Assembly (NCBI RefSeq): GCF_015291625.1
Contig: NZ_CP030047.1
Span: 5,766,001-5,830,000 of the forward strand
Direction: 5' to 3'
Length of the DNA stretch: 64,000 nucleotides
Source: Bradyrhizobium sp. CCBAU 53421
Lineage (GTDB): Bacteria > Pseudomonadota > Alphaproteobacteria > Rhizobiales > Xanthobacteraceae
The position numbers and the translations under genes were made by a program. A model generated the notes under the pieces. The model was not told the origin of the DNA. It did no database searches and saw only the letters and a list, made by a program, of their open reading frames with translations. Positions 43,535-45,798 of this stretch are shown piece after piece. Each line of letters opens with the position of its first letter. Position 1 is the stretch's first letter.

Positions 43535-43770
43535 CGCCCTTCGTCGTTCTCCCAGCGCTGCCCCAAAGATAAAGGCGCCGGTTGGACTTTGCCATGGCGT
43601 GTCGCGGCGCGATCACCCCAAAACGGCGCCGAAATGGCCCGCCTCCAGGGTCGCGGGTGTACAGCCTGTCGCGCGGCCTGCGGTCGCGCGGCGCCGCGTC
43701 GCGCGTCAAGGCGGATGCGTTCTGATAACGTCGAGATGAACGACAAGGCCGGGATCGGCAAAGGACCGGA

Positions 43771-44115
43771 ATGTCCACGACCATTCCAGACAGGTTCTCG
43801 CGGAAGGCTCCCTCGCTGGAGCCGTCCGGCATGCTCCTGTTGTTCGCAACGCTCACCGCGCTGCCGATCGTCCTGACCGTTCGTCTGGTTGAGCCCGCAC
43901 TCGTGCTGCCCGCGCTCAGCCTGGTGTTGTTCGCAGAGGCAGCCATTGCCGCGCTTGCGGCGCGCGTGATCCACATGCGTGCAAGCGTGGCGAACCTCAC
44001 GCTGTGGGATTTTGCCGGCGCATTCACCTTCATGGGGTGTGCGGCGGCGATCCTCGGCGAGCCGGATCAGGCGGCGCTGTTCTTCGAGGAACAGGCCGCG
44101 CTGCGTCCGGTGTAG
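43771..44115 (+). CDS. Small hypothetical membrane protein
   Basis: 114 aa. Two hydrophobic helices (about 20-40 and 43-65) and a third weaker one (about 78-95) are visible. The start follows AAAGGACCGGA. The family is not recognised. It is followed by two interspersed hairpins and then the TerC leader. Confidence 0.7.
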   Translation: MSTTIPDRFSRKAPSLEPSGMLLLFATLTALPIVLTVRLVEPALVLPALSLVLFAEAAIAALAARVIHMRASVANLTLWDFAGAFTFMGCAAAILGEPDQAALFFEEQAALRPV

Positions 44116-44202
44116 AGCATGATCCGGAAAAGTGTGACGCGGTTTTCCGAACAGATCATGCTCAAGCAAGAAGCGAAAGCGCGATGACGATTCATCGCGC
44201 TT
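44115..44202. repeat. Interspersed hairpin pair
   Basis: First hairpin: GAGCATGATC / GATCATGCTC (44115-44124 and 44154-44163) enclosing CGGAAAA / TTTTCCG. Second: AAGCGCGATGA / TCATCGCGCTT (44177-44202) with 11-bp perfect arms. The first is related to the element at 45877-45925. It starts at the stop codon of the preceding gene and may end its transcript. Confidence 0.75.
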
Positions 44203-44271
44203 GAGCGACCGTAATCCCAGGCCGGGCCCCTCTGGCAGCCACAAGCTGCGATGTCGGACTGGAACTCAGTT

Positions 44272-44393
44272 GGAGTGGCCCTGCTTCGACCCGCGACGCT
44301 GACCGGCGTCGCGGCGGGTTTGCCGTCCGCATGACGGCAACGACCGGTTTCGTCGAAACAGTCCACTCCCCGACCTCAAGGGGAGCATTGCTC
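44272..44393 (+). promoter_or_regulatory. Structured mRNA leader of terC, riboswitch-like
   Basis: Long closing stem: GGAGTGG (44272-44278) with CCACTCC (44363-44369), continued by CTGCTTCGAC (44281-44290) with GTCGAAACAG (44352-44361, one mismatch). Inside are two perfect hairpins: CCGCGACGC / GCGTCGCGG (44291-44314) and TTGCCGTC / GACGGCAA (44320-44340). A competing hairpin pairs CTCCCC (44366-44371) with GGGGAG (44380-44385), which is the ribosome site of terC 8 bases before the ATG. The two folds are mutually exclusive. TerC genes in other bacteria are preceded by the Mn2+-sensing yybP-ykoY riboswitch or by the separate terC RNA motif; I do not see the yybP-ykoY consensus here. Confidence 0.65.
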
Positions 44394-45014
44394 ATGTCCG
44401 AACTGTTTACACTCGACGCCCTCAGCGCGTTGCTGCAGGTCGTCGTCATCGACCTCGTGCTGGCCGGCGACAACGCAGTCGTGATCGGCCTCGCCGCGGC
44501 CGGCCTGCCGGCGAAGCAACGCGGCAAGGCGATCCTGATCGGCATCGGTGCCGCGACGCTGCTGCGCATCCTGTTCGCGCTGCTCACCACGCAATTGATG
44601 CAGATCGTCGGCCTGCTATTGGCCGGCGGCATCCTGCTGCTGTGGGTGTGCTGGAAGATGTGGCGCGAGCTGCGTTCGACCATGCATGAGACCACGGCGG
44701 CAGATGGCACCGATGGCGCCGAGGGCCAGCGCAAGACGCTGTGGCAAGCGACGACGCAGATCATCGTCGCCGACGTCTCGATGTCGCTCGACAACGTGCT
44801 CGCGGTTGCCGGCGCGGCGCGCGAGCAGCCGATCGTGCTGGTGTTCGGCCTCGCGCTCTCGATCGCGATGATGGGCGCCGCCGCCACCTTCATCGCAAAG
44901 CTCTTACAGAACCACCGCTGGATCGCCTATGTCGGCCTTGCCGTGATCCTCTATGTCGCCGTCGACATGACCATTCGCGGCGCGTCCGAGATCGCGAAGG
45001 TCGCGCCGGTCTGA
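44394..45014 (+). CDS. TerC-family integral membrane protein
   Basis: 206 aa from ATG 44394 (ribosome site GGGGAG). About seven membrane helices. Two conserved acidic helices carry D-L-V-L-A-G-D-N-A and V-S-M-S-L-D-N-V, the signature pair of TerC/YjbE-type proteins, now linked to manganese or metal efflux. The short Ser/Thr/Glu-rich loop in the middle (about 95-120) fits the YjbE group. A structured leader precedes the gene. The metal substrate is inferred from the family. Confidence 0.9.
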   Translation: MSELFTLDALSALLQVVVIDLVLAGDNAVVIGLAAAGLPAKQRGKAILIGIGAATLLRILFALLTTQLMQIVGLLLAGGILLLWVCWKMWRELRSTMHETTAADGTDGAEGQRKTLWQATTQIIVADVSMSLDNVLAVAGAAREQPIVLVFGLALSIAMMGAAATFIAKLLQNHRWIAYVGLAVILYVAVDMTIRGASEIAKVAPV

Positions 45015-45030
45015 CGGCCGCAAGCAAAAC

Positions 45031-45050
45031 GGCGGGCCTGAAGGCCCGCC
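45031..45050. terminator. Hairpin GGCGGGCC-TGAA-GGCCCGCC
   Basis: 8-bp perfect GC-rich stem with a TGAA tetraloop, 17 bp after the TerC stop and 29 bp before the end of the convergent RraA-like gene. There is no T-run, but position and strength fit a bidirectional terminator. Confidence 0.7.
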
Positions 45051-45078
45051 GCTCCGCAAATAGACAGTGCGCGTAGCG

Positions 45079-45798
45079 TCAGTGGATTTCCGCCGAACGC
45101 TTCAGGGCTTCCTTCAGCTTCTCGAGCGAGAAGTCCTTGGAGCGCGCGATGTCCAGGATCGGGGTCTCGCGGCGGCCGCACAACTCGGCAGCCTCGGGCA
45201 GCTTGGCCGCGACATCATAGGGGATCACGATCGCGCCGTGGCTGTCGGCGTGGATCAGGTCGTCGGAGCGCACCGTCATGCCGGCAACGCGGACCTCGCC
45301 GCCAAAACTTTCGGCATGCACCCAGGCATGCGACGGGCCGATCGAGCCGGCCAGCGCCTGGAAGCCCGGCGCCCATTGCGGAATGTCGCGGATCGAGCCG
45401 TCGGTGATGACGCCGAGGCAGCCCAGCGCCTTGTGCACGGCGCTCTGCACCTCACCCCAGAACGCACCGTAGCCGACGTCGGGACCGTCGATGTCCTGGA
45501 TGACGGAGATGCGCGGACCGAAGCCGGTGCCGACATATTCGTAATAGTCGATGCGGCGCTTCGATTGCTCCTCGGCCGAGAGGCCGGACTTCAGCACCGA
45601 GCGGATCGCGACCGTGCGCGCATAGCCGACGATCGGCGGCAAGGTCGGGAACGGGCAGACCAGCGGCTTCACGGTGTAGCCGATCAGACGGCGCTCCGGC
45701 GCCACGATCTCCATCGCGTTGCAGATCGTCGGCGTATCATAGCGCGCCAACGCCTCGAGGACGGAAGCAGGCAGCGGGGCGGAAGCGGATGTCGTCAC
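45079..45798 (-). CDS. RraA-like / HMG aldolase-type family protein
   Basis: 239 aa. The fold is marked by T-P-T-I-C-N-A-M-E near residue 22, by G-V-I-T-D-G-S-I-R-D (conserved G, D and R-D of the family) and by D-L-I-H-A-D-S-H-G. Family members include 4-hydroxy-4-methyl-2-oxoglutarate aldolases and RNase E inhibitors. The Arg-Asp pair suggests a lyase rather than an RNase regulator. Substrate unknown. Confidence 0.85.
   Translation of the reverse strand: MTTSASAPLPASVLEALARYDTPTICNAMEIVAPERRLIGYTVKPLVCPFPTLPPIVGYARTVAIRSVLKSGLSAEEQSKRRIDYYEYVGTGFGPRISVIQDIDGPDVGYGAFWGEVQSAVHKALGCLGVITDGSIRDIPQWAPGFQALAGSIGPSHAWVHAESFGGEVRVAGMTVRSDDLIHADSHGAIVIPYDVAAKLPEAAELCGRRETPILDIARSKDFSLEKLKEALKRSAEIH

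Follow-up and report, generated by a model that had tools for sequence, protein, structure and literature searches.

In the window, by which we mean the whole stretch of 64,000 nucleotides from Bradyrhizobium sp. CCBAU 53421 that was analysed, the leader of terC belongs, judged by its sequence, to a known RNA family and continues downstream in a chain of competing stems. It probably works as a two-part cis-regulatory switch, in which a candidate aptamer, the terC RNA (44214-44266, forward strand), would act through a relay platform (44272-44385) to control the translation of TerC. The covariance model of terC RNA (Rfam RF03067; outer stem P1, asymmetric internal loop, inner stem P2) matched over its full length (model positions 1-59; cmscan) with 54.2 bits against a gathering score of 39.9, and this was the sole above-threshold Rfam match in the window and the one match of the family in the whole 9.26-Mb genome. 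The match lies in the 5' leader region of the terC gene (a TIGR03717 gene starting at 44394), and the model alignment contains the conserved CCGGGCCCCUCUGGC ... GAUGUCGG around the two stems, which did not vary in any of the 35 aligned leaders. It ends 5 nt upstream of the interval 44272-44393, which an earlier note on this DNA had described as a candidate metal-sensing leader whose fold lacked a yybP-ykoY consensus that it could recognise. That note had named the terC motif and yybP-ykoY for a search with covariance models but had not spotted the former here; with terC RNA now found at 44214-44266, the interval becomes the expression platform and not the sensing part. The family model of 59 positions stops 5 nt before the first platform element (P), so the relay lies outside it, and as a class the family includes members that precede genes other than terC. 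To our knowledge, terC RNA is an orphan candidate from comparative genomics, and we know of no ligand for it. It was present in 130 of 146 genomes of a genus sample, 125 of 198 of a family sample and 40 of 289 of a class sample, and the loci fetched from each sample were those with the best scores, at most 30 (for the family sample, among the matches listed).

The terC gene (44394-45014, forward strand) encodes a YjbE-type TerC membrane protein of 206 amino acids (NCBIfam TIGR03717, 219.5 bits with a cut-off of 134.8; Pfam PF03741, 157.7 bits), and the genome holds two TerC genes besides it. Its Shine-Dalgarno sequence (SD), AAGGGGAG (44378-44385), lies 8 nt before the ATG at 44394. A longer reading of the gene from 44331, taken from the list of open reading frames, was rejected because that start falls inside the variable arm of the leader and because the start at 44394 agrees with relatives. 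The predicted relay consists of four strands on the forward strand of the DNA, each of which could pair with the next (core:P, P:Q, Q:SD). The core, GGGCCCCUCU (44224-44233), belongs to the aptamer and is also the switching strand for P or the SD; it was invariant in the 35 aligned leaders, and their RNAalifold consensus pairs it with P. Element P, GGAGUGGCCC (44272-44281), is the 5' arm of the closing stem and is complementary to both the core and Q, and element Q, CCACUCCCC (44363-44371), can pair either with P (through 44363-44369) or with the SD (through 44366-44371). Between them stands a variable arm (44281-44361), comprising the continuation of the closing stem and the hairpins 44291-44314 and 44321-44339, which differed in length and sequence among genera and showed two-sided changes in its helices.

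All pairings of the earlier note were found where it had placed them: the long closing stem 44272-44290/44352-44369 (GGAGUGG:CCACUCC, CUG:CAG and UUCGAC:GUCGAA, with small internal loops between), the two internal hairpins, and the competing stem of CUCCCC (44366-44371) with GGGGAG (44380-44385). Its structure covered the downstream half of the leader only and left out the competing upstream strand; the closing stem corresponds to P:Q plus an extension and the competing stem to Q:SD, but core:P is a third pairing that had been missed. Core:P and Q:SD are each incompatible with P:Q, and the idea of mutually exclusive folds centred on the SD is upheld in this wider form. The minimum free energy of 44267-44399 was -63.6 kcal/mol compared with -49.5 kcal/mol (sd 4.07) for shuffled sequences (z -3.46, 0 of 200 as good), and that of 44205-44420 stood out similarly (z -3.81, 1 of 200).

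Successive complementarity would allow two states, one with core:P and Q:SD and the other with a free core, P:Q and an open SD. In the proposed ON state, the folded, ligand-holding aptamer would make its 5' strand unavailable, P would take Q, the SD would be free and TerC would be made; in the proposed OFF state, reached when ligand is missing, the core would take P (or the SD itself), Q would mask the SD and no TerC would be made. Constrained folding of 44205-44420 gave -90.4 kcal/mol for core:P with Q:SD, -90.3 kcal/mol for P:Q with a free SD, and -78.8 kcal/mol for the aptamer with P:Q and a free SD, and the unconstrained minimum (-98.0 kcal/mol) was a third state in which the core is paired with the SD while P:Q is formed. 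The RNA without ligand is predicted by these models to be OFF, and the ON state would need a ligand and probably also the order of transcription, since the gap of 11.6 kcal/mol between ON and OFF is large for ligand alone and co-transcriptional folding would have to contribute. Translational control of TerC, as the earlier note had proposed, is the likely outcome. The scheme resembles the translational riboswitches with anti-SD and anti-anti-SD strands, a general class, in that strand exchange would expose or hide the SD, and differs from them in that the terC RNA candidate has direct as well as relayed platforms of equal predicted sign. No description of such a relay platform was found in the literature searched, the original description of the terC motif lying outside that search, and to this extent the platform is undescribed.

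The relay was compared among YjbE-type leaders taken from the best-scoring Rfam loci and from 70 DNA stretches that a search pattern including P had picked out in Bradyrhizobium, Afipia, Tardiphaga, Rhodoplanes, Azospirillum, Inquilinus and others; core:P is therefore present in those 70 by construction, Q and the SD lying outside the pattern, and the tests were repeated without pattern-chosen loci (loci up to L090). After removal of L067, L087, L089, L074 and one site of L088, the 71 long leaders were reduced to 27 non-redundant representatives (string similarity below 0.72), 13 start codons having been set by hand. The best partner of P ended at most 34 nt from the start codon in 23 of these 27, where uniform placement would give 6.7, the exceptions being L061, L076, L104 and L127, and it did so in 11 of the 13 that were not pattern-chosen (3.4 expected). 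Q, defined by P alone, paired better with its own SD (mean -11.2 kcal/mol) than with swapped SDs (-9.3 kcal/mol; z -4.6, 0 of 20000) across 24 of the 27 representatives, three with a P partner more than 55 nt from the start having been dropped; without pattern-chosen loci the difference was smaller (z -2.5, 123 of 20000; 11 of 13 representatives, two dropped likewise). When the Q region was widened to 42 nt in a looser swap test, the difference fell short of significance (z -1.3, 1819 of 20000), P:Q was not significantly better than its swapped versions (4143 of 20000), P being nearly invariant, and in single-locus shuffles Q:SD was often no better than shuffled. Core:P reached -14 kcal/mol or lower in 35 of 37 YjbE-type loci that were not chosen by the P pattern, compared with 25 of 91 sites followed by other genes. 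By eye, Q and the SD change together between clades (CUCCCC/GGGGAG, CUUCC/GGAAG, CUCCUU/AAGGAG and CCUCCU/AGGAGG). These tests ignore relatedness, and their probabilities are therefore optimistic.

For an alignment, 64 of the 71 long leaders were kept (L061, L076, L127, L053, L104, L150 and L138 were left out), and from these the 35 Bradyrhizobium leaders that resemble that of the window formed the set analysed; six divergent rows look shifted by one base at Q. In the RNAalifold consensus of the 35 leaders, core:P formed together with part of Q:SD, and the 5' strand of the outer stem lengthened core:P. The aptamer, closing stem and hairpins were paired in 89.1% of the cells, compared with at most 51.3% when the partners were slid. 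Compensatory changes among orthologues, to which the earlier note had looked as a check, are present in this set: two-sided changes occurred in 10 of 45 pairs (reached by 13 of 500 shuffles) and 28 cells (0 of 500 shuffles), but slid versions reached up to 8 pairs and 19 cells, and neither the covariation score (131 of 500) nor the count of different pair types (239 of 500) exceeded shuffles. The aptamer helices did not vary within the 35 leaders and the OFF pairings showed no two-sided change there; the group of the window has no variation in core, P1, P2 or P, which explains why core:P does not covary. As expected of a riboswitch, the comparison yielded two conserved folds that exclude each other and are coupled to the SD, alongside these negative results from the swap tests, the single loci and the OFF covariation.

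In a second architecture, seen in 11 short leaders of YjbE-type genes, pairing of the core with the SD zone has energies of -16.0 to -20.0 kcal/mol, compared with a median of -9.6 kcal/mol for 242 control genes; six of the 11 were chosen through Rfam and five through the pattern, and several are near-identical. The ATG follows the P element, ACGGAGYGGCCC, after 0-3 nt in ten of the 11, and L086 carries a variant. P itself is the SD region in these leaders, so that the direct and relayed designs predict the same sign, with the folded aptamer being ON; the core would mask the SD directly, and the long form would add two inversions. The core:SD pairing was modest in short leaders of other genes (n 31, median -12.1), with p 0.001 against SD-picked control starts and 0.05 when compared with the best among all control starts. 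Among Alx-type leaders, 22% of 37 representatives have an unusual core partner within the 60 nt examined. Among 11 representatives of YkoY-like TerC leaders, eight have an unusual element complementary to the aptamer 3' strand GAUGUCGG, but seven of the eight belong to a single genus and the second platform is thus a lead only. In L183 and L184 a six-codon ORF (M-Q/K-P-S-S/T-A-stop), possibly a leader peptide, was seen by eye after the terC RNA, about 120-130 nt before terC; in L183 its SD region pairs with the core at -16.8 kcal/mol, which is not unusual compared with shuffles (0.1). The leader of L152, titled Mycobacterium sp. KBS0706, is near-identical to that of Inquilinus limosus (L135), and its name is possibly wrong or the contig foreign.

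Genes downstream of terC RNA were recorded at 191 distinct sites, found in the fetched loci by regular expression and not by covariance score, which makes them no unbiased sample. The first gene encodes TerC at 150 sites (YjbE 93, Alx-like 42, YkoY-like 15), and at the other 41 it encodes DUF4112 (8), lipid kinase (5), TerB (4), NhaD-like (4), CaCA (3), CitMHS (3) or small membrane proteins (3), NhaA (1), a lipoprotein (1) or a product without label (9). The unlabelled products include two P-type ATPases, nearest calcium types but below curated cut-offs, and two DUF533 proteins, and two of these nine sites (L147, L151) have at most 340 nt downstream. TerC follows further down the operon at three of four TerB, four of five lipid-kinase and all three small-protein sites. 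In L088 a Ca2+/Na+ antiporter (TIGR00367, above cut-off) follows the terC RNA, and in L032 an nhaA gene follows the RNA at a distance of 345 nt that includes a 57-aa ORF; the latter arrangement resembles that of the Li+ and Na+ riboswitches, which precede nhaA and related genes. The Rfam scan of the window gave terC RNA only. The protein of L126 is similar to NhaD in NCBIfam far below the cut-offs. In L144 and L185 a protein resembling it follows the terC RNA and precedes a CitMHS-like permease, and in L128 the RNA stands before a CitMHS permease. Divergent pairs of terC RNAs were seen in L022, L039, L048 and L056, one RNA preceding an Alx-like TerC gene and the other a DUF4112 gene (L039, L048, L056) or a lipid-kinase-like gene (L022).

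The signal read by the switch is most probably a cation or linked to pH, with which the gene contexts agree. It is quite possible that this is a cation other than Mn2+ or alkaline pH (e.g., Ca2+ or Na+/OH- stress), as suggested by the Ca2+/Na+ antiporter, the Ca2+-like P-type ATPases, NhaA, the weakly NhaD-like proteins, CitMHS, TerB and DUF533 downstream of terC RNAs, targets that are unlike those of the Mn2+ riboswitch. On the other hand, the sites without TerC as first gene are a minority (41 of 191, nine of them unlabelled), several of them are operons that carry TerC further down, the specificity of the transporters was guessed from their families, and GDT1 and one Na/Ca exchanger occur under the Mn2+ riboswitch too.

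That terC RNA is a second Mn2+ riboswitch, in which Mn2+ would fold the aptamer and switch on an exporter or metal chaperone, appears doubtful. In Bacillus subtilis, meeY (ykoY), a TerC family gene, is under a Mn-responsive riboswitch (yybP-ykoY, RF00080), and TerC proteins are linked to Mn2+ homeostasis (PMC10550928); the TerC of the window belongs to the same family, its genome has no yybP-ykoY, and the P-type ATPases nearest Ca2+ types (below curated cut-offs) also follow terC RNAs. The leader itself is not a yybP-ykoY RNA, an identity that we rejected with no match in the window (gathering score), in 44000-44700 (E up to 10) or in the genome, and the earlier note had rightly seen that its consensus is absent. 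In the 289 genomes, 40 have terC RNA, 38 have yybP-ykoY at E <= 0.001 (28 over the cut-off) and 18 have both (Fisher 4e-8, ignoring relatedness), and the two RNAs precede different genes where they occur together: in the 15 shared genomes that were read, yybP-ykoY (13 of the 15 matches over the cut-off) is followed by GDT1 (11), MntP (3) or a Na/Ca exchanger (1) and never by TerC. Neither GDT1 nor MntP was found up to 2.6 kb downstream of any of the 191 terC RNA sites, and no protein of the TerC panel matched in the 18 yybP-ykoY loci. The differing targets in shared genomes argue against plain Mn2+ sensing by terC RNA and are taken here as evidence for signals that are not simply identical in the two RNAs; with a single ion, a division of targets between two sensors by threshold could nevertheless arise. 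Tentatively, terC RNA might be a riboswitch for a non-Mn2+ signal, with Ca2+ or alkaline pH leading, that controls alphaproteobacterial cation-stress genes (TerC, TerB, Ca2+-type ATPase, Na+/Ca2+ and Na+/H+ antiporters) beside a separate Mn2+ riboswitch, with one aptamer serving direct or relayed platforms.

Less probable again is a leader that binds no ligand, being instead the target of a protein or a static structure in the 5' UTR that reduces translation of TerC; we know of no ligand, and the invariant sequence could serve as a protein site, but the alternative pairings are kept as alternatives and two architectures have the same predicted sign, neither of which a static inhibitory stem needs. 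Transcriptional control by Rho or pausing in place of ribosome access, which leaders of about 100 nt or more after the aptamer would permit, is very unlikely, as a simple consensus scan of 43700-45100 found no terminator-like site and the alternatives converge on the SD. A sigma-70 consensus scan of 43700-45100 found no site either, which does not decide whether the leader is part of the terC mRNA. The relay as proposed offers a mechanism for the orphan terC RNA and indicates the strands suited to mutation and the sign of the expected effects. Setting the RNA beside the Mn2+ riboswitch in genomes that carry both narrows the search for its ligand, and a reporter that allows core, P, Q and SD to be disrupted and repaired one at a time would put the ligand to a direct test.

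Directly after terC, a G+C-rich inverted repeat without a T run was seen at 45030-45051, where the terminator scan reports none. Between the terC RNA and the ORF upstream of it lies a copy of a dispersed palindromic repeat (44113-44194); a 104-nt query gave 41 matches in the genome including itself, and sub-threshold matches to Rfam BASRCI408 and BASRCI27 overlap this repeat and were not taken as RNAs. By eye, the repeat is missing at this place in 13 of 20 long-leader Bradyrhizobium loci (L001-L021 without L008), and the other seven have it or a look-alike; in the loci without the repeat, the ORF seems to finish near the terC RNA. This ORF (43771-44115, forward strand), directly upstream of the terC RNA, resembles a small membrane protein and matched no family in Pfam or NCBIfam. 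A similar ORF in L067 (1562-1921; no match in Pfam) is placed between the terC RNA and terC, so that the position of the RNA in the operon differs, and by eye a similar small ORF also stands between the RNA and terC in L087 and L089.
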